Source: Dromaius novaehollandiae
Lineage: Eukaryota; Chordata; Aves; Casuariiformes; Dromaiidae
DNA length: 64,000 bases
Assembly: GCF_036370855.1 (NCBI RefSeq)
Contig: NC_088106.1
Coordinates: 30,394,501-30,458,500, forward strand
Direction of reading: 5' to 3'
Positions 1 to 64,000 of the stretch are shown here, piece after piece. A model generated the notes under the pieces. That model had not been told where the DNA came from. It saw only the letters and a program-made list of their open reading frames with translations, and did no database searches. The position numbers and the translations under genes are program-made. The first letter of the stretch is position 1. Every line of letters begins with the position of its first letter.

Positions 1-10370
<10,370 letters not shown>

Positions 10371-48400: not shown

Positions 48401-50601
48401 CAGCCACAGGACCCTCAGCCGGGGCAGGTTTTTGAGATAGAAGAGCTCATTTAGGCTTGCAATGTTGTTCTTCCTCAGATAGAGTTCGCTCAGATTCTGG
48501 CACTGATTCAATGGCTCGAGGTCCGAGATGCCATTCACACTGAACAGAGATCACGAGATCAGAGACCAGGGAGCCTATCCCTCCCTCGCTGCATCATCCA
48601 GATGGGAGCAGGACCCCTGTATGACAGTAGCTCTTCAGCCCCCTTTCCTACATCGGCTTAATTTAGGAGCCTCACGCTGGCACAGCACAGCAGGGCAGGG
48701 TGCTGAGCGGCCTACGACATTGCACAGAACATAAAGATAACATTCCATCTTTTTAAGCAGAGAAAAGAATTATAAAAGCAGGCTCACCTCTCAGCTGAAC
48801 ATGAGAAACAGCCTTTGCTTCCCCCAACCATCCATCACACTTATACCCTTTTCTGTAGCAGTTCCTCAGACATACTGAAGGAGAACCCATGTCAGATTAC
48901 CAAGCTAAAAAGCTTAGATTCAAGGACAGCAGAGGCTCTGTGTGATCCCCAGAACACATGGAAGATAGGTGTGTTGCGGGGAGGCTAATGCAAATTAAAA
49001 GCCCTGTGAGATCTAAGAAGCGTTTCAACAACCACTCTGGCCCCATACCGAGGCTGACAAAATCCCATCTAAACTATGGAATACAACTTAGGGAGCAAAA
49101 ATCCAAAGAGGTTCAACCACCTCTACAAACAGTAATAATTTCCCACCCTCAACTTGAGTAGCAAAAGGAAAGGTGCAGAGGAGCTAGCAGAAAAATAAGC
49201 ATTTCTGCATTTCAGCGCATACGAAATCAGGCAAAAGAGCCAGGCAGCTCTGGCACAGAGTCACAGAAAGGCAGTAAGGAACCAAGTGCCAGGACACAGC
49301 CCTATGAGACACGCAGTTGTCCCTGCCCGCTCCATGACCAGGAGTCTGCTATTTACCTGAATGTGATCACCTCGATGTTGGGCAAATCCCGGCATATCGA
49401 TATCTAGGCAGCAAAAGACAGAAACAGCTGTACAAACAGGAAAATAACTAACTAACTAAAAACAATTTAAATCATGCACAAGCAATATAACAGCAAGAAC
49501 AGGAATTTAAGGTTACCTCAGTCTCACCCAAGCTGAACACAACCATAGGCATCTGCTGCCACACTCACTAACCCCTCCACCCTTTCCACCCAGTCCCCAA
49601 AAGCGCTGGAGCTCATTGCCAGAGGGCCAGCCCAAATCTGCCTTCCCCAGCACCCTGCCACCAGCTCCCCATCACCACTCCAGCCGCCAGCCAGGACAAG
49701 GCTTTCCCCGAGGAGCAGCACAGGCCGCGGGGTGCGGGCTGGGGCTCGAGGCAGCAGGGCGGCGCTGCCGGTCGCTCCAGATGCCCAGGGGCCCCCGAGC
49801 GCTGCCCCTCCGTCGCGGGGGAGAGCAGCGAGGCCACAGCGGTGCTTACGTCTGTGAGGCGGCTGCCCCTGCGGGACGAAAGCCGGGGGGTCGCGGCAGG
49901 GCCCAGCTTCCCCCACCATGCCGCCTGCGCCCGGGACCACCGCCTCTCCCTCCCGTCACAGCCTGGTCCCCTCACGGCCCCCCCAGTCATCCCGTTGCGC
50001 CCCCCAAGGCCTCTTTACCCCCCCCAGGATCCCCCCACAGCCTGCTTGTCCCCCACAGCCCCCCGTGGCCTGGCACACCCCCCTAGGGCCAGCTTGCCCC
50101 CCCCCATAGCCCCCCAAGGCCACCAGCACGCCCCCCAAGGTTTGCTTGTCCCTCCCATGGCCCCGTACACCCCCTGAGACCTCCTTGCCCCCTTCCCGGG
50201 GCCCCCCCACAGCCTGCTCCTCCCCCCACAGCCCTCTCCCCCCCCGAGGGCCTGCTGGGCCCCCCACGGCCCCCCGAGGCCCAGGGCACCAACCCTAGGC
50301 CTGCCTGTCCCTCCGAGGCCCCCCACGGCCCCAGTGCACCCCCTCACGGCCTGCTGGCCCCCCCCACGGCGCGCTGCGCCCCCCCCAAGGCCACCCTGCC
50401 CCGCTCCAGGCCCAGGCCGCCCCCCCAAGGCCCGCTGCCCCTCGCAAGGCCTCCTCGCCCCCCGCCCGGCCCGGCCGCCGCGTCCTGCCCCCCGGCCCCC
50501 GGCGCAGCGCCGCCCGGTGCCCACCAGCAGTTGAGGCGGCGGACGCCATCGAGGGCGGCGGCCTTGGCGCGGCCCAGCACGGCCGCCCGCGTCAGCCTCA
50601 T
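45438..50601 (-). CDS. CFAP410: CFAP410 (C21orf2), ciliary leucine-rich-repeat protein
   Basis: CFAP410 is a basal-body/ciliary and DNA-repair-associated protein that works with NEK1 and is mutated in human retinal and skeletal ciliopathy. Seven exons on the minus strand, 50525-50601, 49850-49868, 49357-49403, 48310-48539, 47445-47616, 46687-46780 and 45438-45563, are all in phase and total 765 bases, 254 residues plus TGA (human 256). The N-terminus [14 protein letters not shown] is followed by short leucine-rich repeats ([29 protein letters not shown]) and an LRR cap ([20 protein letters not shown]). After that come an acidic Ser/Glu-rich linker, a basic patch, and the conserved helical C-terminus beginning [20 protein letters not shown]. 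Exon 2 is only 19 bases, supported by phase and by the GSRLTD motif across it. PFKL and CFAP410 are also neighbours on human chromosome 21, which supports the call. The gene converges on PFKL. Confidence 0.96.
45980..46215 (-). mobile_element. CR1 LINE fragment, 3' region, old
   Basis: The plus strand reads like the complement of a CR1 3' end: GTTGGAAGGCATCTCTGGAG, then CCCAACGTCCC...AAAGCAGGACTACTGCC, AACAGCTCTTTCCTCATGTC and GGCCATTTCCCCTTGTTGT. It is diverged and truncated at both ends. It lies in intron 6 of CFAP410, in the same orientation as the gene. Confidence 0.85.
50020..50470. repeat. C-rich degenerate minisatellite in CFAP410 intron 1
   Basis: About 450 bases made of loosely repeated units such as CCCCCCAAGGCC and CCCCCACAGCC at irregular spacing. 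The minus strand, which is the transcribed sense of CFAP410, is strongly G-rich with many runs of four or more G. Open frames in it are compositional. Confidence 0.7.
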
Positions 50602-51480: not shown

Positions 51481-51514
51481 GAGGATGCAGGCGACGGGAG
51501 GAGCTGTCGCGCAG

Positions 51515-51549
51515 GATGTTCCCCGTTGTGCACGGACTGACGTGTGCAG
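51515..51549 (+). other. Putative 5' non-coding exon end of RING copy 1
   Basis: TTGTGCACGGACTGACG followed by TGTGCAG/GTGAGC matches the same segment upstream of copies 2 and 3 and ends in a good splice donor. The matching acceptor, TTTCTAG at 51828-51834, precedes the start codon, giving an inferred intron of 285 bases. The transcription start is unknown. Confidence 0.5.
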
Positions 51550-51837
51550 GTGAGCTGTGCTGCTGCAAGGCAGGCAGGCAGTGTGGACAGCAGTGGCGGG
51601 TGTGGGCACTGCTTGGGTCTGCCTCGATGCAACGCTTCAGGGTGAGTGAGGATGGGGGAGAAGAAGAAGACACGAGGGGGACCCCTTTCCCCACGCAGAC
51701 CAGAGGCCAGGCCTCAGCTGTCGTCCCTGCCTGGTTCCTCATCACGCCCTAGCCCACCCATTCCCTCTTTCTGCTTTCTCCTCCTTTCGTTGCCAGGACA
51801 GCTCACACAAGCTCTCTGTCTCTTTCCTTTCTAGCAC

Positions 51838-52092
51838 ATGATGTCTTCAGAAGAGGACTTTCCAGAGGATGCCAGCTTTTCCTCCGGCATCAGCACCAGC
51901 CGGCTGCAGCAGGAAATGCCGCCAGATGCCTCCAAAGACCTGCGGTGCTCCATCTGCCTCAACACACTTGACGACACCGCCTACATCACCGTCTGCATGC
52001 ACCGGTTCTGCTACGGCTGCATCCGGCAGATATGCAGGCGACGGGAGGAGCTGTCGGGTGAGTGCCCCCCAGCAGCGAGGGAGCAAAGCTAA
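51838..52092 (+). pseudogene. TOPORS-like RING gene, copy 1, cut within the RING
   Basis: The 84-residue frame begins MMSSEED, like copies 2 and 4, and carries the first six zinc ligands of a C3HC4 RING (C37, C40, C53, H55, C58, C61), including the third cysteine that copies 2 and 4 lack. After CIRQ (Q64, ending at 52029) homology stops. The next bases repeat a 25-nt segment from just upstream of the gene, so the last two ligands (the CPLC of the other copies) and the whole Arg/Ser tail are missing. A GTGAGT donor follows at about 52058, so splicing to an unseen exon is possible, but no homologous 3' exon was found before the CR1 insertion. Most likely a pseudogene. Confidence 0.75.
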
Positions 52093-52450
52093 AGCCCGAG
52101 GTGGCACGGGGGGGCCTGAGCAGCCTGCTCCCAGGGCCTCGGCTGTGCCTGCGGTGTGCGCAGCAGGGGGTCCCCCAGCGGTGCCTTCCTCCTTCTGGAG
52201 GCATGGTGGCCCTGGGAGCATCTGCAAAGCCCCAGGTCCAAGGTGGTTGGAGGGGGGCTGTTTCTGGGGCTGTGCAATGGGTGCAGGTGCTGCGCTGCAG
52301 AGGCAGCAGCTGGCGCATGCTCCACCCACAGGAAAGGCCCGTGCGCTCAAAGAAGCAGGAGCACAGTTACAGCTGAGCTCCGGGGTGGGCCAGCCTCAGG
52401 GACATCCCCTCTGCTGTCCCTCTGCCCGGAAATGCTTTGGCAAACCACAG

Positions 52451-53640
52451 GATCACCGAATCACCAAAGAATGGTTGGGGTTGGAAGGGACCTCCGGAGA
52501 GCCTCTAGTCCAGCCTCCCTGCTCAAGCAGGGTCCCCTAGAGCAGCTTAGCCAGCACCCTGTCCAGGTGCCTTTGCAATAGCTCCAAGGATGGAGCCTCC
52601 ACAACGTCTCTGGGCAACCTCTTGCAGTGCTCTGGCACCCTCACACGAGGAAAGTTGTTCCTTCTGTTCAGACGCAACTTCCTGTGTTTCGCTTGGTGCC
52701 CGCTGCCTCTCGTCCTGTCCCTGGGCACCACTGAAGAGAGCCTGCCACCATCCTCTTTACACCCTCCCCTCAGTTATTTATCGGCATCGATAAGGTTCCC
52801 CCATCAGTCTTCGCTCCTCCAGGCTCCACAGGCCCAGCTCTCCCAGCCTTTCCTCACAGCAGAGATGCTCCAGTCCCTTCCTCCTCTTCGGAGCCCTTTG
52901 CTCCACTAGCTCCACATCTGTCTTGTACTGCGGAGCTCCGAACTGGACACAGTACGCCAGGGCTGGCCTCAGCAGGGTGGCTGAGGAGAGCACATCACCT
53001 GCCTGGACCTGCTGGCAAGGCTCTGCTCTTCCTAATGCAGCCCAGGATGCCATTGACTGCCCTTGCCGCAAGGGCCCATTGCTGGCTCATGGTCCACTTG
53101 TTGCCCCCCAGGACTCCCAGGTCCTGCTCGGCAGAGCTGCTTCCCAGCAGGTCGGGCCCAGCATGTCCTGCTGCCTGCGCTTAGTCCTCCCCAGGAGCAG
53201 GACTCTTCTGCGCTTCCCTTGAGTGAACTTCAGCAGGGTCCTCTCTGCCCATTTCTCCACACGGGCGAGGTCCCTCTCAATGGCAGCACAGGCCTCTGCT
53301 GCATCAGCCACTCCTCCCAGCTTTGCCCAACCAGCAAACTTGCTGAGGGTACACTCTGTCCCTTCGTCCAGGGCACTGATGAACAAGTTGAACAGCATGG
53401 CACCCAGCAGTGACCCCTGGGGTACACCGTGCGCTACAGGCCTCCAGCTAGACTTTGCGCCATGGATCCCAACCCTCTGAGCTCTGCCACTCAGCCAGTT
53501 TTCAAGCCACCTCACTGTCTTGCCTGTGAGCATGGTACAGCAGAAGTGTCAAAAGCCTTCCGGAAGTTGTCAGGAGCAACAGACACCGCTCTTGCCTCGT
53601 CGACCAGCACAGTCATTTCACCCCAGAAGGCCCTCAGGTG
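52451..53640 (-). mobile_element. CR1 LINE, 3' reverse-transcriptase part and 3' end
   Basis: Read on the minus strand, this contains typical CR1 reverse-transcriptase phrases: KAFDTS, GVPQGSLLGAMLFNLFIS, DEGTECTLSKFAG, VEKWAERTLLKF and [12 protein letters not shown]. It then runs into the CR1 3' end, whose complement on the plus strand is GGTTGGGGTTGGAAGGGACC. A short GATCACCGAATCACC-like repeat marks the 3' tip at about 52451. The 5' part of the element is missing (5' truncation is usual for LINEs), and the reading frame is interrupted in several places, for example the YADD-type motif region reads FAGWAK. It follows directly after copy 1 of the RING family. Confidence 0.93.
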
Positions 53641-54204
53641 GGAGGGGGCCAGGGCGCTTGGGGCAGGGCACCACAAAGGCCTTGGGCCAAGCATGCTTGC
53701 AAGGAGGGAGAAAAGGCAGCGTGGACAGGAAAGCCTTGGCAGGACCTGCCGAGTCCTCTGCCTTTTGCCCAGGCCTCTTCCCACGCCCAGGAGGCCAAGG
53801 TTGGTGTCAGCCGCAGAGGGGCACAGGAGCACATGGCTCCCCAGATGGGTCGGACCTGCCAGGAGGAAAACACACAGGCGCTGCCGGAGGTCTCTGTAGC
53901 GCAGCCACCGCTGGAGCAGCCCAGGGAGCCGGGAGCTTCTGGAGATGAGGCCAAGTGCCACCGGGCAGCTCTGAGCCCCCCAGCAGCCCCTGTTTCATCG
54001 TGCCCTGCCCCGTCGTTCCCAGGACATGGGCCAGGCACCTCCATCAGCAGGCTGTGCCAGGCAACGCTGCTGGAGGCCACTTGAGATCTGTCCTGCCCTC
54101 CCCATCTGCACACTTCTGACGTCCCCTAGGGAGGCTTTGGCTTTTCCCCTCTTGTGTCCAATACACCCGCAGGCACTTGCCGAGTTGTGCTTCTGCACAA
54201 CAAG
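53641..54204. other. Spacer between CR1 and first-exon block 1
   Basis: GC-rich DNA with a 148-codon plus-strand frame (53638-54084) that I cannot connect to any family. It is not repeated elsewhere in the window as far as I can see. Confidence 0.4.
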
Positions 54205-54920
54205 CAACACACCCCAACTGCTGAATGCAGAACAGGCTTTTTTATGGTGCTGGGCTGGGGGGTGGAGGAAAGAGAGGGAAGGTTGTGCTGGACTCTTGGG
54301 CAGAAAAAGCTGTCCACTTCACCACCACGACTCTGGCTGGATTTGGTCACCCTGACAGTTGGCAGCGTTTGACTTGACCTCTGCCGAAAGAGGAGAGGAC
54401 GAGAAATAACTGCACAACTCGGAGACCTGCACTAACATCCAGCCTCCGACTGCCAGTGCAGCCAAGGCAAAGCCGGGCACAGCCCCAAGCAGCAACAGCC
54501 CCACGCGGAAAGCAGAGAGTTCCTGTGACTCCCGTGACATCACCGCTTGGAGGCAGCCGCACAGTGGGGACCCCCGCACTTAGCCCCAAGCTCCACGCTG
54601 GGTGGCACGCGAGGCGTCCAGGGCCCGGCAGGGTCACGGCTTTGCGTTTGGGGCTTTGCTCTGCGGCCAGCAGCAGCTCTGCCTGGCTGACTCGGGGGCT
54701 GTGGACCCCGCGCGGCTGCTGTGCAGCGGCCGGGGGCGCCCAGAGGGTGCCAAGAGTGTTGGGGAGCCCTGAAGGCTCACGGGGTGTTCCCTGTTGTGCA
54801 CGGACTGACGTGTGCAGGTGAGCTGTGCTGCTGCAAGGCAGGCAGGCAGCGTGGGCGGCAGTGGCGGGTGCGGGCACTGCTTGGGTCTGCCTTGATGCAA
54901 CGCTTCAGGGTGAGGCTGGG
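54205..54920 (+). repeat. Promoter/first-exon block 1 (upstream of copy 2)
   Basis: Aligns with 57705-58545 over most of its length. It contains a membrane-segment-like sequence on the minus strand (about 54428-54513), a conserved GC-rich stretch, and a putative 5' non-coding exon ending GTGCAG/GTGAGC at 54817. The matching acceptor before copy 2 is TTTCTAG at 55404-55410, so the inferred 5' UTR intron is 593 bases. Compared with block 2 it lacks about 120 bases, including a perfect CRE. Promoter function is inferred from position and conservation only. Confidence 0.6.
54319..54579 (-). other. Open frame with membrane-segment-like sequence, unknown
   Basis: The minus-strand frame of 86 codons contains VGLLLLGAVPGFALAALAVG, a convincing hydrophobic span, followed by a polar tail ending near QGDQIQPESWW. 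The second block has the same frame (57821-58027), with the span identical and the tail diverged but unbroken, ending QIQPELCW. I see no start or splice site that fixes a gene. It could be a relic last exon of a membrane receptor or chance. A related segment in opposite orientation lies at about 57075-57170. Confidence 0.3.
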
Positions 54921-55413
54921 GGAGAAGAAGAAGACGCGAGGGGGCCCCTTTCCCCATGCAGACCAGAGGACAGGCCTCAGCTGCCGTCCCTGCAGAGAGC
55001 CTGGTTCCTCGGCACGCCTTAGCCCACCCGCTCCCTCTGCCCTGGGCTTCCTTGGCCTCACTGGGTGGGGAGCACCTTTCCCCTGGGACCGTCTCTGCTC
55101 AAGGGGAAGTGTTCTTGGGGGGAAACCCAGGCCTTGTTGTCTGCCTTGACTTCAGGAAGGCTGCGCTGTACCTCAGCGGTCAAGACGGGCCCCAGTCCTC
55201 TTCAACACAACCTCAGCCCTTCTGGGACTCTCTGATTGTCAGAGTCGGGGGGCCTCTCGCATGACTTGCTAATGGTGCTTGTGCTGCTTCCTCGCAGCCC
55301 TGAAGAAGACTGGGCAGCTCCTTGGCTCTTGACTCCCACAGCTTTTCTGCTTTCTCCACCCTTCGTTGCCAGGACAGCTCACACAAGCTCTCTGTCTCTT
55401 TCCTTTCTAGCAC

Positions 55414-56175
55414 ATGATGTCTTCAGAAGAGGACACCAGCTTTTCCCCTGGTGCCAGCACCAGCCGGCTGCAGCAGGAAATGCCGCCAGATGCCTCCAAA
55501 GACCTGCGGTGCTCCATCTGCCTCAACACACTTGACGACACCGCCTACGTCACTGTCTACACGCACCGGTTCTGCTACGGCTGCATCCGGCAGTGGTCAG
55601 CCACCAGAGCCCAGTGCCCGCTCTGCCAGCGGCCTTTCCGCTCCGTCCACACGGGGCCACCTGACAACAGCTCCCAGGCGGATGGCACCAGGCGCTCCTT
55701 GGCCGGCCAGCGACGAGGGAGAGTTCATTCCCGCTCTGCAGCGAGCACAGCCCGAAGCAGGTCCCCCAGGGGCAACCGCGATGGCCCTAGCAGGCTTCCG
55801 CACCAGAGGGGCTGTGACTCCCCAGCGAGGAGCAGGCGGTGGCCGAGCAGGGCTCAGGCAACCGCTCATGCTGACCGCTGGGCAAGACCCCCAGCCAGGG
55901 GCCGATTACAGCAGAGGTCCCGCAGCACCCGCAGCAGCAGACGGGAAGCACCTTCTCCAGGCTGCCACCGCAGCAGGTCCCCCAGGAGAGGCAACGACCT
56001 CCACGAGGGATTTATGCTCAGGGCGGTTCGCGAGACCCCAGCTTGCTGGGGGAGGCAGAGGAGCATGGCTCACAGTGACATGCTAGCTCCTAACGTCAAA
56101 ATGGAAGTGGTGGCCTTATTTCTTATATTCTCATGCAACGTTCTGTTATTTTTCCATTTCCACACATTCTTCTAG
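55414..56175 (+). CDS. TOPORS-like RING protein, copy 2, with hydrophobic tail
   Basis: 253 residues in one exon, start just after an inferred 5' UTR acceptor (TTTCTAG/CACATGATG). The N-terminus is a short Ser-rich, acidic stretch; the RING spans about residues 33-71 with C33, C36, H51, C54, C57, C68 and C71. Position 49, where the third cysteine belongs (VCMH in copy 1, FCMH in copy 3), is Tyr in VYTH, so one zinc site should be impaired. Residues 100-193 are Arg/Ser-rich with RSRSPRG and SRSPRRG motifs. After residue 193 the protein departs from copy 3 and ends with a hydrophobic stretch (232-247, EVVALFLIFSCNVLLFF) at the extreme C-terminus, resembling a tail anchor. TOPORS is a dual ubiquitin/SUMO E3 of about 1,045 residues, so this is only a fragment of that architecture. 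Expression and activity unknown. Confidence 0.72.
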   Translation: MMSSEEDTSFSPGASTSRLQQEMPPDASKDLRCSICLNTLDDTAYVTVYTHRFCYGCIRQWSATRAQCPLCQRPFRSVHTGPPDNSSQADGTRRSLAGQRRGRVHSRSAASTARSRSPRGNRDGPSRLPHQRGCDSPARSRRWPSRAQATAHADRWARPPARGRLQQRSRSTRSSRREAPSPGCHRSRSPRRGNDLHEGFMLRAVRETPACWGRQRSMAHSDMLAPNVKMEVVALFLIFSCNVLLFFHFHTFF

Positions 56176-56354
56176 AACCCCCCACTTCCAGCAGCTGCCT
56201 GGGGCCTCGGGGCAGATCCGGACGAGGGCAGCGGGAGCTGCAGTGCCCATCGCTGGCAAACACCAGGCTGAAACAACGCAGCAGACTCGAGCAGACAGCC
56301 TGGGTGCCTGTGAGCCTCCTGTGCCTCCTGCTGTGTTGGGCCAGGTGCTTAATT

Positions 56355-56360
56355 AATAAA
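56355..56360 (+). promoter_or_regulatory. Poly(A) signal AATAAA of copy 2
   Basis: Located 180 bases after the stop of copy 2 in TTAATTAATAAAAGG, with a matching signal after copy 4. The short distance suits a compact 3' UTR. Confidence 0.6.
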
Positions 56361-56726
56361 AGGCAGGCAGCACCCGCTGCCTGCAACCAACACCCTTGCC
56401 TCTGTGCTGACTTTGTTCAGCCCTTGGCTCACAGACGAGAGCGACCAGCCTTGAAAAAGCCCCAAGGCGGCGCTGGCAGAGAGAGCTGCCCGGGCCTCCG
56501 CACCGGCCTCCAAACTCTGCAAGGGCTGCAAGCGCTGACGAGCCAGCTTTCCGGCAGGAGCTAACATCTGTCCCGATGGACTGGGGCCGGTCCAGATTTG
56601 GCTCTGTGCAAAACAGCCACGTGCCCCAGGGACCGGGGAAGTCGGGACACACCATCTCCATTCCTCCCTGGAAATACAGATTTTATTCCGCCAAGGGCAG
56701 CTGTGCCCTGCAAAGCCTCCGGCTCC

Positions 56727-57043
56727 TGCCAGGAAGGGCTTTGTGGAGGAGTCTCCCTCAGCCTCCCCTCCACGCACACAGCCCCAGGACACACCTGGGG
56801 CCAGAGCACGGCCAGCAGTGAGAAGCCATCTCTGCTCACCCTCTGGCCCTTCCCATGCTCTGCCTCGGTGCCCTGCTGCCCTCCAGCTCCCGCCCTGCCC
56901 GCGCTCAGCCCCGGCTGGCTGCGGGCAGGCCGAGGGGCTCCAGCCCCCGCAGCCATGCCGGGCAACCCAGCTGCCACACTGCCCCCAGAACAGCTCCAGC
57001 CACGGGCCCCACCGCTAGAAGGTCCCTCCCCACAGCAGCCTGA
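56727..57043 (+). repeat. Inverted repeat arm 1
   Basis: About 315 bases that match the reverse complement of 60593-60903 with few differences, for example CAACCCAGCTGCCRCACTGC shared across the arms. The arms are separated by about 3.55 kb and enclose copy 3. A further direct copy of this arm lies in duplication unit 2 at about 62965-63281. Confidence 0.88.
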
Positions 57044-57074
57044 CAGCAGGCTCCAGCCCTCGGCACTGGCTTCA

Positions 57075-57170
57075 GCCCTTTCTCCCTGGGGCTCTTGCTG
57101 CTTGGGACTGCGCCAGGCTTCACGCTGCCTTCACTGGCAGTCGGGGGCTGATGTCTGTGCACACCTCCGA
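57075..57170 (+). other. Membrane-segment-like sequence, inverted relative
   Basis: On the plus strand, after a CTGGCTTCAG acceptor-like site, one frame reads GLLLLGTAPGFTLPSLAVGG followed immediately by a stop. It matches the minus-strand segments at 54428-54513 and 57931-58014 but in the opposite orientation, showing that this sequence has been inverted along with its surroundings. A copy exists at about 63313-63408. Confidence 0.5.
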
Positions 57171-57339
57171 CTTGCTGGGTTAAATGTGCCCCCTGTCTTG
57201 AGGAAGGGAACAAAGAGGGTGCAGGCAAGGACATGCCTGCGCCTTGTCTGCACTCCTAGGCCTCCATGGCCTGCAGCAGCCTCACCTGGGGCCTCCCCCA
57301 CACCCTGCCCACGGGCCCCGGAGCCCAGTTCAGCTTACC

Positions 57340-57699
57340 CCGGGAGCATCTCTCCTCTGAGGACAGGCTGAGGGAGCTGCCACTGTTGAGGGAGAGGCTA
57401 AAGAGGACGGGGCCAGGCTCTTTGCAGTGGCCCAGGCACAGGACGAGAGGCAGCAGGCACCAACACAAACATAGGCACTTCCGTCTGACCATGAGGAAAG
57501 CCTTTCTCACTGTGAGGGCAACTGAGCTCTGGTTGCCCACAGAGCTTGGGGAGTCTCCAGCCTTGGAGCTATTCAAATGCCACCTCGACAGCTCCCGGGG
57601 CAATGTGCTCTAGGTGACCCTGCTTGAGCACAGGGGTGGCACTCCATGACCTCCACAGGTGCCTTCCAACCTCAACCGTTCTCTGACCCCGTGACTGTG
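57340..57699 (+). mobile_element. CR1 LINE 3' end fragment
   Basis: Plus-strand CR1 3' terminal sequence: CATCTCTCCTCTGAGGACAG, GCTGAGGGAGCTG, GAGGAAAGCCTTTCTCACTG, then GGTGCCTTCCAACCTCAACC near the 3' tip. Only the last 360 bases of the element are present. It was copied along with the tandem duplication. Confidence 0.9.
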
Positions 57700-57704
57700 A
57701 AAAT

Positions 57705-58545
57705 AGTGCCCCAACTCCTCAATGCCGCACATGCGTTTTATGGCCCAGGCTTTGTGGGGGTGGGTGGAGGAAAGGCAGGGAAGGCGGTCCTGTTCTCCTG
57801 GGCAGAAAACATTGTGCGGTTCACCAACACAACTCTGGCTGAATTTGGTCACCCTGACGGTTGGCAGCATCCAGCTTGAACTCCACTGAAAGAGGAGAAG
57901 AGGAGAAATAACTCGGCAAGTCTGAGCTTTGCACTAACATCCAGCCTCCGACTGCCAGTGCAGCCAAGGCAAAGCCGGGCACAGCCCCAAGCAGCAACAG
58001 CCCCACGCGGAAAGAGCCCAAGCACACGCCGAGGGCTGAAGCCTGCTCTCCAAGGGACTGTGCAAGCCCAGGGCTGCTCCTGCAGCCTGGGCGTCTTTGG
58101 GGTGTGGCCCCGAGAGCCCTGTGACGTCACCAGAGAGTTCCTGTGACTCCCGTGACATCACTGCTTGGAGGCAGCCGCACAGTGGGGACCCCCGCACTTA
58201 GCCCCAAGCTCCGCGCTGGGTGGCACGCGAGGCGTCCAGGGCCCGGCAGGGTCACGGCTTTGCGTTTGGGGCTTTGCTCTGTGGCCAGCAGCAGCTCTGC
58301 CTGGCTGACTCGGGGGCTGTGGACCCCGCGCGGCTGCTGACCCGCAGGCGAGGGTGCCCAGAGGGTGCCAAGAGCGTTGGGGAGCCCTGAAGGCTCACGG
58401 GGTGTTCCCTGTTGTGCACGGACTGACGTCTGCAGGTGAGCGGTGCTGCTGCAAGGCAGGCAGGCAGCGTGGGCGGCAGTGGCGGGTGTGGGCACTGCTT
58501 GGGTCTGCCTTGATGCAGCGCTTCAGGGTGAGGCTGGGGGAGAAG
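57705..58545 (+). repeat. Promoter/first-exon block 2 (upstream of copy 3)
   Basis: Paralogue of block 1, sharing the minus-strand membrane-like segment (about 57931-58014), the GC-rich stretch from 58130 and the putative 5' non-coding exon ending CTGCAG/GTGAGC at 58435. The acceptor before copy 3 is TTTGTAG at 58853-58859, giving a 5' UTR intron of 424 bases. It retains about 120 bases absent from block 1. A third block begins at about 63943 and runs off the window. Confidence 0.6.
58122..58129 (+). promoter_or_regulatory. CRE palindrome TGACGTCA upstream of copy 3
   Basis: A perfect CREB/ATF consensus about 300 bases before the putative first-exon donor. CREM/CREB sites of this type are common in germ-cell and stress promoters. 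It is in the 120-base segment that block 1 lacks, so copy 2 has no equivalent. Confidence 0.5.
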
Positions 58546-58862
58546 AAGTCCCCCTCACCCCGTAGCCCGTAGCCCACCCGGTGCCTTTTCCCCAGCCTTC
58601 CTTGCCCTCGCTGGCTGGCAACGCCCTTCCCCCAGGACCTCCCCTGCTCCAGGGGAAGCATTGCTGGGCAAAGCCAGAGCCGGAGGGGAGTCTTTTAGGG
58701 GGGCCTTTACACTGCCTCGCAAATGGGGCTTCTGCTGCTTCCTTGCAGCCTTCAAGAAGCCTGGGCAGCTCTTTGGCTCTCCACCTCCACAGCTTTCCTG
58801 CTTTCTCCTCCCTTTGTCTCCAGGAAAGGTCCCGAGCTCCAGGTCTCTTTCCTTTGTAGAAC

Positions 58863-59987
58863 ATGACAGCAGAAGAAGACTTTCCAGGCGGCAGCGGCAG
58901 CGCCAGCTCTTCCTCTGGTGCCAGCACCAGCCGGCTGCCTCAGGCAACACCACCGGATGCCTCTGAAGACCTGCTGTGCACCATCTGCCTGGACACAGTG
59001 GACAACGCCGCCTACGTCGCCTTCTGCATGCACAGGTTCTGCTTTGGCTGTATCCGGCAGTGGTCAGCCACCAGAGCCCAGTGCCCGCTCTGCCAGCGGC
59101 CCTTCAGCTCCATCCTCCACACCGTGCGAGCTGACGACGACTTCCAGGAGTACCACGTGCAGCGCTCCGACAGCAGCTCGTCCCATGGCTGGCGAGGAGG
59201 GAGATCGGGTTCCCGCTCTGCGGCAAGGAGGCGGCACCGCTCGTCAGCGCCCCGGCACAGCAGCTCCTCCTCCAGCAGCTCCTCCTCCAGCAGCGATGGT
59301 GGCCACGCTGGGTCCCCCGAGAGGGCCCGAAGCAGGTCTCCAAGGCATGATCACCATGGCCACAACTGGCTTCAGCACGTAGCGAGGGGCTACGACTTCC
59401 CCAGGAGGAGCAGGCGGCGACGGAGCAGGGCTCAGGCCACTGCTCCTGCCAGCCCTTGGGAAAGATCCCGAGCCGGGGGCCGATTGCGGCGCAGGTCACG
59501 CAGCACTGGTGGCAGCAGGAGATGGGAAGCAGCTGCTGCAGGCTGGCACCAGCATGCCTCCCCGTCGTGGGGCCACCAGGTCCCCGGGCAGGAGGACGCT
59601 CCCGGGCCCTCCTACGCCAGCTCTGCTCAGGCTCCTGTGCCAACAGCTTCTCACAGGCAAACCTCCGAGAGCTCTGCCCAGGAGCCAGCCAGCTCTGCCC
59701 CCGCAGCGCACACCCTGCCCCCGGCGCAGGGCCAAGCACGGCAGGAGCAGCAAAGGGGCCGCAGCAGCAGAAGGCAGCGCAGAAGACGCGTGGAGCCTTC
59801 GCCTGCCCGGGAGAGCCACCGCAGCAGGTCCCCCAGGCGAGGCGATGAGCAGGTCCCCTCGGGGAGCACCGAGCGCCGTCAACGGGGACAAGTGCACGAG
59901 AGATGGGATTATTCCAGGGAAAGGCACGGAGCAAGGCGCTCATGCCGGCGGAGGTCCCGCAGCCGGCCCAGGCGCAGGGGCTGGTAG
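58863..59987 (+). CDS. TOPORS-like RING protein, copy 3, complete RING with Arg/Ser-rich tail
   Basis: 374 residues in a single open exon, start just after an inferred acceptor (TTTGTAG/AACATG). All eight C3HC4 zinc ligands are present (C39, C42, C55, H57, C60, C63, C74, C77), so E3 ubiquitin ligase activity is plausible. Directly after the RING, SSILHTVRADDDFQEY (residues 82-97) matches the TOPORS extension SIFHSVRAEDDFKEY, which is the basis for the family call. The rest is low complexity: a run of 12 Ser (133-144), many SRSPR repeats and a strongly basic end (RRRSRSRPRRRGW), recalling the RS-rich nuclear-speckle region of TOPORS but far shorter. No membrane segment. It lies between the two arms of an inverted repeat and has the best-preserved upstream block, so it is the likeliest functional member of the cluster. 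Confidence 0.78.
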   Translation: MTAEEDFPGGSGSASSSSGASTSRLPQATPPDASEDLLCTICLDTVDNAAYVAFCMHRFCFGCIRQWSATRAQCPLCQRPFSSILHTVRADDDFQEYHVQRSDSSSSHGWRGGRSGSRSAARRRHRSSAPRHSSSSSSSSSSSSDGGHAGSPERARSRSPRHDHHGHNWLQHVARGYDFPRRSRRRRSRAQATAPASPWERSRAGGRLRRRSRSTGGSRRWEAAAAGWHQHASPSWGHQVPGQEDAPGPSYASSAQAPVPTASHRQTSESSAQEPASSAPAAHTLPPAQGQARQEQQRGRSSRRQRRRRVEPSPARESHRSRSPRRGDEQVPSGSTERRQRGQVHERWDYSRERHGARRSCRRRSRSRPRRRGW

Positions 59988-60084
59988 CACACCGTGCAAA
60001 AGGAGCAACCCCAAAGCTTGTCCCTTGCCAGCGCACTTCAGGGCACTGCAGTGAGCCCTGGGAAAGAAAAGGATCCTTCATGCC

Positions 60085-60440
60085 CCTACCAGTAAACAGG
60101 GTTTTCCTTGAGCTTCAGAGGAATTGCTTGTGTTCCATCATGCGCCCCTTGCCTCTTGTGCTGTCCCTGGGCACCGCTGGGAAGAGTCTGGCCCCGTCTT
60201 CCTAACTCCCCAGCCCCCAGCAGGGATTTCTGCACCTGGAGAAGATCCCCCTGAGCCTCCTCTTCTCCAGCCTGGACTCTCCCAGCTCCCTCAGCCTCTT
60301 CTCGGGCAACCGAGGCTCCAGGCCCTTCATCAGCTGCGTGGCCCTTGGCTGGACTCGCTCCCGTTCGACCATGTCCCCCTTGTCCTGGGAGCCCAGAACT
60401 GCTCCTAGGACTCCTGTCATGGTCTCCCCAGTACTGTCGG
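60085..60440 (-). mobile_element. CR1 LINE 3' region fragment
   Basis: The minus strand carries CR1 phrases: the complement of CTCCTCTTCTCCAGCCTGGA, GAGGCTCCAGGCCCTTCATC and GTCCCTGGGCACCGCTG. It starts about 100 bases after the stop of copy 3 and is opposite in orientation to the CR1 at 57340. It differs clearly from that one, so the two are separate insertions. Confidence 0.88.
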
Positions 60441-60592
60441 GGCAGGTGCTGCCAGGGGGGCTCCAGCACATCAGCCCCCTCCCAAGCTGGCCCTGGGTGC
60501 CTCCCCCTACCCCGGGCCCCGGGGTTTCTTGAGCAGGGAGAGGGCAGTGGGGCCTGGTGCTGAGAGCGTGGGGGGACAACCGTGGGGAGCTG

Positions 60593-60903
60593 AGCTGCTG
60601 TGGGGTGGGGCGGGGAGGCCGTGGGGCCCGTGGCTGGAGCTGTTCCGGGGGCAGTGCGGCAGCTGGGTTGTCCAGCATGGCTGCGGGGGCTGGAGCCCCT
60701 CGGCCTGCCCGCAGCCAGCCGGGGCTGAGCGCGGGCAGGGCGGGAGCCGGAGGGCAGCAGGGCACCGAGGCAGAGCATGGGAAGGGCCAGAGGGTGAGCA
60801 GAGATGGCTTCTCACTGCTGGCCGTGCTCTGGCCCCAGGTGTGTCCCGGGGCTGCGTGCGTGGAGGGGAGGCTGAGGGAGACTCCTCCACAAAGCCTCTT
60901 ACA
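60593..60903 (-). repeat. Inverted repeat arm 2
   Basis: Reverse complement of 56727-57043, with slightly more diverged ends. Immediately beyond it (60904-61112) lies about 200 bases not repeated elsewhere in the window, then the start of duplication unit 2. Confidence 0.88.
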
Positions 60904-61651
60904 GCCTCTCCTGGGCAAAGAGCCACTGGCAGCGTTTGGGGAAAGCCCCCGGCCCTCTGCGGGCTCTGCACCCTCGCTGGGGCCACCCAGGCGGCCGCGC
61001 TGCCCCAAGGGTGCAGGGGCATTTGAGGCAGGAGCTCCCGTGTCCCTGCAGGGCACACTGGGGACGAAGCCTCGGGAAGGGTCGCTCCCCACCTCTTTCT
61101 TGTGCCCGTAGTGGGCACTGCTTGGGTCTGCCTTGATGCAACGCTTCAGGGTGAGGCTGGGGGAGAAGAAGAAGACGCGAGGGGGCCCCTTTCCCCATGC
61201 AGACCAGAGGACAGGCCTCAGCTGCCGTCCCTGCAGAGAGCCTGGTTCCTCGGCACGCCTTAGCCCACCCGCTCCCTCTGCCCTGGGCTTCCTTGGCCTC
61301 ACTGGGTGGGGAGCACCTTTCCCCTGGGACCGTCTCTGCTCAAGGGGAAGTGTTCTTGGGGGGAAACCCAGGCCTTGTTGTCTGCCTTGACTTCAGGAAG
61401 GCTGCGCTGTACCTCAGCGGTCAAGACGGGCCCCAGTCCTCTTCAACACAACCTCAGCCCTTCTGGGACTCTCTGATTGTCAGAGTCGGGGGGCCTCTCG
61501 CATGACTTGCTAATGGTGCTTGTGCTGCTTCCTCGCAGCCCTGAAGACTGGGCAGCTCCTTGGCTCTTGACTCCCACAGCTTTTCTGCTTTCTCCACCCT
61601 TCGTTGCCAGGACAGCTCACACAAGCTCTCTGTCTCTTTCCTTTCTAGCAC

Positions 61652-62413
61652 ATGATGTCTTCAGAAGAGGACACCAGCTTTTCCCCTGGTGCCAGCACCA
61701 GCCGGCTGCAGCAGGAAATGCCGCCAGATGCCTCCAAAGACCTGCGGTGCTCCATCTGCCTCAACACACTTGACGACACCGCCTACGTCACTGTCTACAC
61801 GCACCGGTTCTGCTACGGCTGCATCCGGCAGTGGTCAGCCACCAGAGCCCAGTGCCCGCTCTGCCAGCGGCCTTTCCGCTCCGTCCACACGGGGCCACCC
61901 GACAACAGCTCCCAGGCGGATGGCACCAGGCGCTCCTTGGCCGGCCAGCGACGAGGGAGAGTTCATTCCCGCTCTGCAGCGAGCACAGCCCGAAGCAGGT
62001 CCCCCAGGGGCAACCGCGATGGCCCTAGCAGGCTTCCGCGCCAGAGGGGCTGTGACTCCCCAGCGAGGAGCAGGCGGTGGCCGAGCAGGGCTCAGGCAAC
62101 CGCTCATGCTGACCGCTGGGCAAGACCCCCAGCCAGGGGCCGATTACGGCAGAGGTCCCGCAGCACCCGCGGCAGCAGACGGGAAGCACCTTCTCCAGGC
62201 TGCCACCGCAGCAGGTCCCCCAGGAGAGGCAACGACCTCCACGAGGGATTTATGCTCAGGGCGGTTCGCGAGACCCCAGCTTGCTGGGGGAGGCAGAGGA
62301 GCATGGCTCACAGTGACATGCTAGCTCCTAACGTCAAAATGGAAGTGGTGGCCTTATTTCTTATATTCTCATGCAACGTTCTGTTATTTTTCCATTTCCA
62401 CACATTCTTCTAG
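61652..62413 (+). CDS. TOPORS-like RING protein, copy 4, near-identical to copy 2
   Basis: 253 residues, differing from copy 2 only at residues 130 (Arg for His), 166 (Arg for Gln) and 174 (Gly for Ser). It shares the Tyr at the third zinc-ligand position, the SRSPRRG motifs and the hydrophobic C-terminal stretch. The splice acceptor before the start (61642-61648) is intact, but the duplication breakpoint removed the usual first exon. Transcription would need a new promoter or splicing from the first exon of copy 3, about 3.2 kb upstream. A collapsed or expanded assembly repeat cannot be excluded. Confidence 0.7.
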   Translation: MMSSEEDTSFSPGASTSRLQQEMPPDASKDLRCSICLNTLDDTAYVTVYTHRFCYGCIRQWSATRAQCPLCQRPFRSVHTGPPDNSSQADGTRRSLAGQRRGRVHSRSAASTARSRSPRGNRDGPSRLPRQRGCDSPARSRRWPSRAQATAHADRWARPPARGRLRQRSRSTRGSRREAPSPGCHRSRSPRRGNDLHEGFMLRAVRETPACWGRQRSMAHSDMLAPNVKMEVVALFLIFSCNVLLFFHFHTFF

Positions 62414-62592
62414 AACCCCCCACTTCCAGCAGCTGCCTGGGGCCTCGGGGCAGATCCGGACGAGGGCAGCGGGAGCTGCAGTGCCCATCGCTGGCAAACA
62501 CCAGGCTGAAACAACGCAGCAGACTCGAGCAGACAGCCTGGGTGCCTGTGAGCCTCCTGTGCCTCCTGCTGTGTTGGGCCAGGTGCTTAATT

Positions 62593-62598
62593 AATAAA
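62593..62598 (+). promoter_or_regulatory. Poly(A) signal AATAAA of copy 4
   Basis: Same position relative to the stop as in copy 2, within TTAATTAATAAAAGG. Confidence 0.6.
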
Positions 62599-63577
62599 AG
62601 GCAGGCAGCACCCGCTGCCTGCAACCAACACCCTTGCCTCTGTGCTGACTTTGTTCAGCCCTTGGCTCACAGACGAGAGCGATCAGCCTTGAAAAAGCCC
62701 CAAGGCGGTGCTGGCAGAAAGAGCTGCCCGGGCCTCCGCACCGGCCTCCAAACTCTGCAAGGGCTGCAAGCGCTGACGAGCCAGCTTTCCGGCAGGAGCT
62801 AACATCTGTCCCGATGGACTGGGGCCAGTCCAGATTTGGCTCTGTGCAAAACAGCCACGTGCCCCAGGGACCGGGGAAGTCGGGACACACCATCTCCATT
62901 CCTCCCTGGAAATACAGATTTTATTCCGCCAAGGGCAGCTGTGCCCTGCAAAGCCTCCGGCTCCTGCCAGGAAGGGCTTTGTGGAGGAGTCTCCCTCAGC
63001 CTCCCCTCCACGCACACAGCCCCAGGACACACCTGGGGCCAGAGCACGGCCAGCAGTGAGAAGCCATCTCTGCTCACCCTCTGGCCCTTCCCATGCTCTG
63101 CCTCGGTGCCCTGCTGCCCTCCAGCTCCCGCCCTGCCCGCGCTCAGCCCCGGCTGGCTGCGGGCAGGCCGAGGGGCTCCAGCCCCCGCAGCCATGCCGGG
63201 CAACCCAGCTGCCACACTGCCCCCGGAACAGCTCCAGCCACGGGCCCCACCGCTGGAAGGTCCCTCCCCACAGCAGCCTGACAGCAGGCTCCAGCCCTCG
63301 GCACTGGCTTCAGCCCTTTCTCCCTGGGGCTCTTGCTGCTTGGGACTGCGCCAGGCTTCACGCTGCCTTCACTGGCAGTCGGGGGCTGATGTCTGTGCAC
63401 ACCTCCGACTTGCTGGGTTAAATGTGCCCCCTGTCTTGAGGAAGGGAACAAAGAGGGTGCAGGCAAGGACATGCCTGCGCCTTGTCTGCACTCCTAGGCC
63501 TCCATGGCCTGCAGCAGCCTCACCTGGGGCCTCCCCCACACCCTGCCCACGGGCCCCGGAGCCCAGTTCAGCTTACC

Positions 63578-63937
63578 CCGGGAGCATCTCTCCTCTGAGG
63601 ACAGGCTGAGGGAGCTGCCACTGTTGAGGGAGAGGCTAAAGAGGACGGGGCCAGGCTCTTTGCAGTGGCCCAGGCACAGGACGAGAGGCAGCAGGCACCA
63701 ACACAAACATAGGCACTTCCGTCTGACCATGAGGAAAGCCTTTCTCACTGTGAGGGCAACTGAGCTCTGGTTGCCCACAGAGCTTGGGGAGTCTCCAGCC
63801 TTGGAGCTATTCAAATGCCACCTCGACAGCTTCCTGGGCAATGTGCTCTAGGTGACCCTGCTTGAGCACGGGGGTGGCACTCCATGACCTCCACAGGTGC
63901 CTTCCAACCTCAACCGTTCTCTGACCCCGTGACTGTG
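63578..63937 (+). mobile_element. CR1 LINE 3' end fragment, duplicated copy
   Basis: Counterpart of the CR1 at 57340-57699, carried by the tandem duplication; it differs by only a few bases, for example CTTCCTGGGCA against CTCCCGGGGCA. Confidence 0.9.
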
Positions 63938-64000
63938 AAAATAGTGCCCCAACTCCTCAATGCCGCACATGCGTTTTATGGCCCAGGCTTTGTGGGGGTG

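Follow-up and report, generated by a model that had tools for sequence, protein, structure and literature searches.

A gene-bearing macrosatellite of TOPORS origin next to CFAP410 in Dromaius novaehollandiae

The stretch of Dromaius novaehollandiae DNA analysed here (64,000 nucleotides, hereafter the window) carries short RING-type genes beside CFAP410, which raises the question of where these genes came from, how many of them the genome holds, and whether they may still encode a ubiquitin ligase. An earlier note, made from the letters alone, had described four such frames on the + strand. All four, designated c1 to c4, are present: a tblastn search of the window with 82 residues of c3 recovered four copies at E <= 3e-21, and the next match had an E value of 0.094. 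The count of four reflects the extent of the window, which covers the left edge of a tandem array (array 1) that continues outside it.

RING copies of the window

45441..50601, - strand: neighbour gene CFAP410; first exon 50524-50601, other matches at 48308-48544, 47525-47617 and 45441-45656
51514..51666, + strand: upstream/exon-1 block belonging to c1, with donor GT at 51550; over 153 bp, 91% identity with the block of c3
51838..52092, + strand: c1 (frame 51838-52089); half-RING, 84 aa; type found 20 times in array 1
52465..53548, - strand: LINE insertion behind c1; reverse-transcriptase piece 53087-53548
54513..54930, + strand: upstream/exon-1 block of c2; donor GT at 54818; 96.4% identical to 58131-58548
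54872..61112, + strand: array-1 unit (c2 and c3), 6241 bp
55414..56175, + strand: c2 (frame 55414-56172); 253 aa, Tyr in place of zinc ligand 3, C-terminus hydrophobic; type found 56 times in array 1
58131..58548, + strand: upstream/exon-1 block belonging to c3, with donor GT at 58436
58436..58859, + strand: c3 intron; its acceptor TTTGTAG/AACATGAC is shared by the genome's own TOPORS
58863..59987, + strand: c3 (frame 58863-59984); 374 aa, complete RING, RS-rich tail, no lysine
61113..64000, + strand: beginning of a further array unit, which continues past the window edge; 99.4% identity with 54872-57762
61652..62413, + strand: c4 (frame 61652-62410); 253 aa, second c2-type copy, without exon 1

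A complete RING was found only in c3, where all eight zinc ligands are in place (C39, C42, C55, H57, C60, C63, C74 and C77), together with Ile41, Trp67 and Pro75, which we take to be E2 contact positions. The other three copies are incomplete: c2 and c4 keep seven of the eight ligands, with Tyr (residue 49) replacing the third ligand Cys, and c1 ends after the sixth ligand with six of eight in register. The hydrophobic C-terminus of c2, which scores 2.1 on the Kyte-Doolittle scale over 19 residues, may associate with membranes. The TOPORS-specific extension after the RING, HTVRADDDFQEY, is kept in c3, as had been noted before, and among the four copies in c3 only; in its general form (HxVRAxDDFxEY) it is also present in the copies read from arrays 2 and 3 described below and absent from c1, c2 and c4.

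The description of the copies as near-identical holds for c2 and c4, which belong to a duplication (54872-57762 and 61113-64000, 99.4% identical, with an offset of 6241 and then 6238), but not for the others, c3 and c2 sharing about 79% identity in a 421-bp stretch around the RING exon. Likewise, the proposed sharing of upstream blocks applies to c1, c2 and c3, which have the exon-1 block in common, but not to c4, which lacks exon 1 because the duplicated unit holding it starts inside the intron. The limits previously given for the c3 intron were off by only one or two bases.

CFAP410 was located by tblastn with a human query sequence. The LINE behind c1, presumably CR1-like, has inverted copies at 57387-57685 and 63625-63923, and its piece at 53087-53548 matches RVT_1 with an E value of 2e-5 and 24.9 bits, under the curated cut-off of 29.6. 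No RNA families or tRNAs were found in the window at the thresholds used.

Relationship to TOPORS

Against human TOPORS, c3 scored 108.9 bits. Among 177,635 PDB sequences, its best match was a herpesvirus RING domain (49.7 bits), and NCBIfam returned weak rad18 matches far under the cut-off, as would be expected if the copies belonged to an unrelated RING family (RING1/2, RNF8, RAD18 or the viral ICP0 type) that merely resembles TOPORS. However, the TOPORS score is twice as high, and human TOPORS has the same best PDB match (56.2 bits); since no TOPORS RING occurs among the PDB matches, the herpesvirus domain is the best PDB match of TOPORS itself. In a tree of 13 rows, a check proposed in the earlier note, the copies fall into one group with TOPORS and the PWI-bearing paralogues of TOPORS, well apart from RING2 and BMI1; the fork that unites all TOPORS-like rows has a support of only 85/89 and is drawn open. 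An unrelated RING family, which we regard as having a negligible probability, was rejected on the TOPORS versus PDB and NCBIfam scores and on the tree.

The genome has one full TOPORS gene (contig C35, 16.54 Mb; a 1004-aa frame); in chicken, TOPORS is located on the Z (PMC1876622). In addition to the RING and its HTVRA-DDF-EY extension, c3 shares with TOPORS the N-terminal STSRL..PPDAS segment, a serine at position -5 from the first Cys and an intron acceptor just before the ATG, the junction being TTTTGTAG/AACATGAC in TOPORS and CTTTGTAG/AACATGAC in c3 and in arrays 2 and 3. An origin by retro-copying was rejected because the genes have retained both exon 1 and the intron, with an acceptor that agrees with the one in TOPORS. 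The C-terminal part of c3 is RS-rich like that of TOPORS (30 RS/SR dipeptides in 374 aa), but its alignment was no better than shuffles, of which 13 of 60 were as good with the genome's own TOPORS and 18 of 60 with each of the paralogues on contigs C17 and C18; homology of the whole tail being not significant, we offer only the short PGPSY motif, as suggestive.

Exon 1, the acceptor of the intron, the RING and an RS-rich tail survive in the short genes, whereas the PWI-like region and the SUMO-binding part are absent. The PWI core motif, present in the genome's own TOPORS and in the C17 and C18 paralogues, was not found in c3, and a genome search with a PWI query, for which 24 of 24 candidates were scored, found nothing in the arrays. 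The Pfam PWI model did not match even the human TOPORS used as a control and is uninformative on this region. A regular-expression scan for SUMO-interacting motifs (SIMs) with an acidic flank found none in c1 to c4 and in two array-2/3 proteins, and two in 819 residues of the genome's own TOPORS; the scan is not fully sensitive, since four SIMs are given for human TOPORS (PMC11402782). According to the same source, TOPORS ligase activity in vitro persists when the SIMs are mutated. With neither a PWI-like region nor recognisable SIMs, a SUMO role of the short forms is not supported, be it the SUMO-ligase function that the earlier note had inferred from the family or a SUMO-targeted ligase function retained by inheritance.

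The array proteins further differ from TOPORS in their length (at most 374 aa against the 1004-aa frame), in the loss of the VGYxKP segment and in their number, with hundreds in tandem where TOPORS has a single full gene. The genome also contains other PWI-bearing TOPORS-like genes, which are GC-rich (18 PWI matches in all, including some on C1 and C35; RINGs were read for C17, C18 and C35). Those on C17 and C18 have a TOPORS-type RING; unlike the array genes, the PWI-bearing genes keep the PWI-like region and VGYxKP, lie outside the arrays and show no lysine depletion.

Arrays across the genome

In the 1.468-Gb genome, three tandem arrays were identified on a single contig, C9, at 30.44-32.39 Mb. 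Their unit lengths are about 6.24, 7.33 and 4.74 kb, and arrays 1, 2 and 3 hold a minimum of 130, 42 and 35 TOPORS-like copies, respectively. The total of at least 207 is some fifty times what the earlier note could see and bears out its proposal of a lineage expansion; all counts come from one assembly, and exact numbers may be wrong. Array 1 comprises at least 54 c3, 56 c2 and 20 c1 copies, and the copies of arrays 2 and 3 are c3-type. Among the c3 spacings of array 1, 27 of 53 are 6232-6245 bp, and a further 18, which span an intervening c1-c2 stretch, measure 12.55-12.95 kb. The spacing is 7302-7332 bp in 39 of 41 cases in array 2, and 4726-4740 bp in 33 of 34 cases in array 3, whose first three copies are inverted. 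A further 33 diverged copies are located near the ends of large contigs and on small contigs; the seven that were read all have the same two stops.

The exon-1 block was found upstream of every c3-type gene read with enough flank, being 95-100% identical to that of c3 at the c3-type genes read in arrays 1-3; of 240 genome candidates for it, the best 40 were scored, and all of these lie in array 1. Most c2 copies seem to have no promoter of their own. An exact 26-base word containing the Tyr codon occurs in 50 of the 56 c2 copies.

Haplotype or collapsed-repeat errors, which do occur in vertebrate assemblies (PMC9516828), could in principle have produced the copies, given the 99.4% identity of c2 and c4 and the single assembly examined. 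However, false duplication would yield two copies rather than regular arrays of dozens, and the three arrays differ in unit length and 3' ends, with copies differing by 0-9% at the protein level, so that we consider an assembly artefact very improbable. Recent copying of the RING genes is supported, in agreement with the earlier view that the expansion looks still active. That these genes form a gene-bearing macrosatellite of TOPORS origin is, in our judgement, close to certain.

Constraint, candidate function and comparable systems

Compared with a dead copy, c3 is more conserved in the RING (166/204 positions alike) and in the promoter and exon 1 (239/301) than in the intron (241/416), with Fisher p values of 4e-9 and 1e-9, respectively. 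The dN/dS of the RING is 0.14 (0.08-0.36) against the C18 paralogue, and its upper bounds are 1.05 and 1.01 against dead copies. Whole-frame dN/dS between arrays is near neutral (0.72-0.75), and a 66-codon RING segment is identical between c3 and an array-3 copy, synonymous sites included; recent uniformity may therefore reflect copying rather than selection. Matched stretches are free of stops in 129 of 131 c3-type array rows, which are not independent copies, and in all 56 c2 rows. In neutral simulations, 61 random substitutions introduced a stop in a fraction of 0.895 of the c3 runs, which is not taken as proof of frame retention because the copies are not independent. The c3 protein has no lysine, whereas its own dinucleotides would predict 5.5 (a count this low came up in 16 of 3000 simulations), a modest depletion in a post hoc test chosen after the sequence had been seen; c2 shows none (951 of 3000). 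Structure prediction with four sequences did not yield a usable model (mean pLDDT 42.4).

These data bear on whether the arrays are a passenger macrosatellite that spread at the DNA level only, its frames being remnants that have stayed open through recency and homogenisation and that serve no protein function at present. The near-neutral ratios between arrays, the value of 0.73 for the RINGs of c2 and c3, the near-identity at all sites within arrays and the presence of 33 diverged copies, of which the seven read share stops, are in line with this possibility, as is the fact that c2 and c1, which by sequence have lost RING function, are kept as well as c3. Conservation of the RING and promoter above the intron across the older split, the confinement of lysine depletion to the coding frame and, with the reservation made above, the open c3-type frames argue against it, and we consider it possible but rather unlikely.

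The explanation that we prefer, with middling confidence, is a macrosatellite derived from a TOPORS-family gene whose c3 units encode a predicted stripped-down nuclear RING ubiquitin ligase, c2 and c1 being inactive or decoy forms. A genomic copy of such a gene grew into the arrays, their uniformity probably being upheld by unequal crossing-over and gene conversion. The product of the c3 units, which may be transcribed from their own promoter, would be a nuclear RING protein, rich in RS and almost free of lysine. Together with an E2, it would serve as a ubiquitin ligase whose targets are not poly-SUMO chains, in a dose set by copy number. The c2 copies (Cys replaced by Tyr, mostly without their own promoter) and the half-RING c1 copies could be inactive passengers or competitors of c3.

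It is also conceivable that copy number has been driven by a meiotic or germline arms race between active and decoy forms, as proposed for some ampliconic families. The very high copy number and the near-equal numbers of complete-RING and ligand-lost forms fit such a conflict as a pattern only; dN/dS did not exceed 1 in any comparison made, ratios of single changes aside, and the apparent lack of promoters in most c2 copies also speaks against it, making this scenario improbable. We regard as improbable, too, a self-contained dosage system in array 1 in which the ratio of active c3 to decoys (near 1:1 for c2, plus c1), shifted by unequal crossing-over, would tune nuclear ubiquitin activity, perhaps in the germline.

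A transcript described as chicken 'E3 ubiquitin-protein ligase Topors-like' is listed in PMC7563548, indicating that individual models of such genes already exist in annotations. In the open-licence literature, outside which most subscription journals lie, we found no paper describing TOPORS genes of birds as multi-copy or as arranged in arrays. Several Topors-like models are present in bird gene sets, and an annotation of this type, like the expression value assigned to it, may lump many copies together.

Lysine-desert proteins are known in the ubiquitin system (PMC10169902), and c3 resembles them as a predicted E3 with a long low-complexity lysine-free stretch, although its depletion is modest, was tested post hoc and was read in one genome.

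Protein-coding macrosatellites of dozens of copies are unusual. The human RS447 megasatellite reportedly has its promoter within the unit, to judge from the title of a cited paper. With a unit of 4746 bp in 20-103 copies encoding the deubiquitinase USP17 (PMC2874809), RS447 is the closest analogue of the arrays, which likewise consist of several-kb units in dozens of copies with a ubiquitin-system open frame in each. It differs in that the arrays carry a gene that is ligase-type by sequence rather than a deubiquitinase gene, are unrelated in sequence, and occur as three arrays on one chromosome with ligand-lost and truncated forms interspersed. The arrays make it testable why ubiquitin-pathway genes end up in macrosatellites, how uniformity of promoter and RING is preserved although tails and decoys drift apart, and what role is left to a TOPORS RING that is no longer tied to recognising SUMO. 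RS447/USP17, the ubiquitin-pathway case cited, is mammalian, and the TOPORS arrays, with about 200 copies, offer a mirror case, with a ligase-type gene in place of a deubiquitinase gene.

Gene copies in the window and their relation to TOPORS

The four TOPORS-like RING copies (c1 to c4) described in the earlier note were recovered at the same positions by reading and by a search of the window. The cluster does adjoin CFAP410, starting about 1 kb past its first exon. c3, the sole complete copy among the four, encodes 374 aa with all eight zinc ligands, followed by the TOPORS-type extension HTVRADDDFQEY, retained as had been claimed, and by an arginine/serine-rich tail. c2 and c4 represent a single gene type, in which the third zinc ligand is Tyr, the extension is gone and the C-terminus has a hydrophobic stretch (Kyte-Doolittle 2.1 over 19 residues); both are contained in a duplication of 2891 bp (99.4% identical) that continues past the window end. 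c1 ends after the sixth zinc ligand. Its coding exon contains, shortly 5' of the stop, a splice-donor-like word, CGGGTGAGT (window 52059-52066), where the half RING might be spliced onto another exon. Within the array unit, a 307-bp segment (window 60594-60900) has inverted copies at 56734-57039 and 62972-63277 (94-95% identical; 97% over 280 bp).

c3 scored 108.9 bits against human TOPORS and 49.7 bits against the best of 177,635 PDB sequences; a PWI core, a VGYxKP segment and an acid-flanked SIM core were not found in c3. A single complete TOPORS gene is present in the genome, on contig C35 (frame of 1004 aa, 81% identical to the human query for the PWI region), along with 17 more PWI matches on C1 (12), C35 (3), C17 and C18. 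These 18 matches, ranging from the full C35 gene to weak ones (those on C1 lie at 17-22 Mb and 111-138 Mb), form a wider PWI-bearing TOPORS-like family, some members of which have stops. The proposed kinship with TOPORS was upheld by a RING tree, where the array and diverged sequences stand beside a group made up of TOPORS, C17 and C18 (support 97/98), while the long branches of RING2 and BMI1 fall outside; support is 85/89 at the fork uniting all TOPORS-like rows, which is left open in the drawing. The intron acceptor is likewise common to TOPORS and c3, as are the three bases preceding the ATG. Scores, tree and common acceptor show that the arrays arose from a TOPORS-family gene, by way of a genomic copy from which the middle part was lost.

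Tandem arrays on C9 and diverged copies elsewhere

The window (C9:30394501-30458500 of a 1.468-Gb genome) holds the beginning of the first of three tandem arrays. They were delimited with c3 residues 1-100 as query (150 of 422 candidates scored, all 150 matching).

Features of the C9 neighbourhood (genes in the window located by tblastn with human proteins)
window ~25.2-39.7 kb, + strand: PFKL
window 50.6-45.4 kb, - strand: CFAP410
C9 30.453-30.905 Mb: array 1, at least 54 c3 rows
C9 31.59 Mb: UBE2G2
C9 31.63 Mb: LRRC3
C9 31.659 Mb: inverted single copy with a stop (c3-residue search)
C9 31.68-31.99 Mb: array 2, at least 42 c3-type rows
C9 32.218-32.379 Mb: array 3, at least 35 c3-type rows, the first three on the opposite strand

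The order over C9:30.44-32.38 Mb is thus CFAP410 - array 1 - UBE2G2 - LRRC3 - array 2 - array 3. Because it differs from the human order, CFAP410 - TRPM2 - LRRC3 - TSPEAR - UBE2G2, the arrays may border an inverted block. A 24-bp minisatellite of 17.7 copies (window 23749-24172) lies 5' of the first PFKL match.

Spacing of c3-type genes is 7302-7332 bp in 39 of 41 intervals of array 2, 4726-4740 bp in 33 of 34 of array 3, and either 6232-6245 bp (27 of 53) or 12.55-12.95 kb (18 of 53) in array 1. The c1 query found 20 copies (96-100%), all in array 1 with an identical 85-codon frame; 18 of them sit between successive c3 copies and explain the 18 long spacings, and c2 follows 3.45-3.69 kb after all 20. 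At least 56 full-length c2 copies were found among 150 scored of 557 candidates, all in array 1 and stop-free, and a perfect match to the 26-base word containing the Tyr codon occurs at 50 places. Stops interrupt the matched stretch in only 2 of 131 array rows of the c3-type search, both in array 2, and a single array-3 frame is short (201 codons). Every array-2 unit read has a second, incomplete RING piece (5486-5775 of locus L013), adjoining a LINE insertion that resembles the one behind c1. In total, the arrays hold at least 130 + 42 + 35 = 207 copies, and at least 241 copies are counted with 33 diverged copies and the inverted one. It is unlikely that these arrays are an artefact of assembly; the exact copy number is nonetheless uncertain.

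Among the c3-type genes read in arrays 1-3, the upstream 418-bp block with exon 1 (58131-58548 at c3) is 95-100% identical (one match partial). A DNA search with this block placed all 40 scored of 240 candidates in array 1, which is not a genome-wide count. c2 has the block where c1 precedes (window c2; L012, partly read) and lacks it where no c1 precedes (window c4; L009); extrapolated from these four cases, a promoter of its own would be present at about 20 of the 56 copies of c2.

Outside the arrays, 18 of the 150 rows scored in the c3-residue search are diverged copies with TGA and TAG. A search with a stop-free stretch of this class (150 of 320 candidates scored) gave 33 copies at 96-100% identity, followed by a drop to 70% (C5, 3; C6, 4; C8, 3; C9, 4; C10, 2; C33, 4; C48, 3; C86, 5; C182, 3; C215, 2). 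Every diverged row listed has one TGA and one TAG, common to the three loci translated (L022, L024, L026), and the upstream block is present at 80-82% in all seven read (L022-L028). Copies of C5, C9 and C10 lie on the - strand less than 0.35 Mb from the contig end, and those of C6, C8 and C33 on the + strand less than 0.4 Mb from the contig start. With copies tens of kb apart and orientation to the contig end fixed on these six large contigs, the class is part of a long subtelomeric repeat.

Constraint, homogenisation and lysine content

Compared with the dead diverged copy L024, c3 is identical at 166 of 204 sites in the RING and extension, 239 of 301 in promoter/exon 1, 459 of 642 in the tail and 241 of 416 in the intron (Fisher p ~4e-9 between RING and intron and 1e-9 between promoter and intron); figures for a second dead copy, L026, are close. 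RING dN/dS is 0.14 (0.08-0.36) between c3 and C18, and 0.43 and 0.45 against the dead copies (upper bounds 1.05 and 1.01). Together, these values show that the family was constrained during part of its history.

Between arrays, whole-frame dN/dS is ~0.72-0.75, and identity is 0.975-0.985 in the RING, 0.954-0.964 in the promoter, 0.93 in the tail, and 0.971 in the 3' half versus 0.89-0.90 in the 5' half of the intron. Over a 66-codon RING segment, c3 equals an array-3 copy, synonymous sites included. This mixed pattern and the synonymous identity mean that copying or conversion dominates the recent history, which carries little information on present constraint. Since recent dN/dS is near 0.7, a macrosatellite whose genes are purely passengers stays a serious rival, albeit a less probable one.

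Lysine is absent from the 12 array-1 c3 sequences read (11 distinct copies; L002 and L011 overlap) and occurs once, at residue 7, in each of the 11 array-2 and array-3 frames. In a post hoc test, a first-order model of c3's own DNA gave an expectation of 5.5, with zero in 16 of 3000 simulations; the other two forward frames contain 10 and 9 lysine codons. Counts as low as those of the array-2 and array-3 copies came up in 107 and 153 of 3000 simulations, and the same test gave no depletion in TOPORS, C17, C18 or c2. All six lysines of the matched TOPORS RING segment are replaced in c3 and likewise in the dead copies, so the loss predates the arrays. As a pointer from a post hoc test, the low content of c3 is in line with the lysine deserts that PMC10169902 describes in proteins of the ubiquitin pathway.

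Interpretation and known systems

The best-supported reading is a gene-bearing macrosatellite whose c3 units encode a predicted stripped-down ubiquitin ligase. According to PMC11402782, human TOPORS without SIM function keeps its in vitro ligase activity and loses poly-SUMO binding; by analogy, c3 would act as a ligase on targets other than poly-SUMO chains. The same kind of arrangement is known from human RS447, a 4746-bp unit encoding USP17 in an estimated 20-103 copies (PMC2874809). Unlike RS447, the present arrays carry a ligase-type gene, belong to a different vertebrate lineage and have ligand-lost and truncated variants interspersed.
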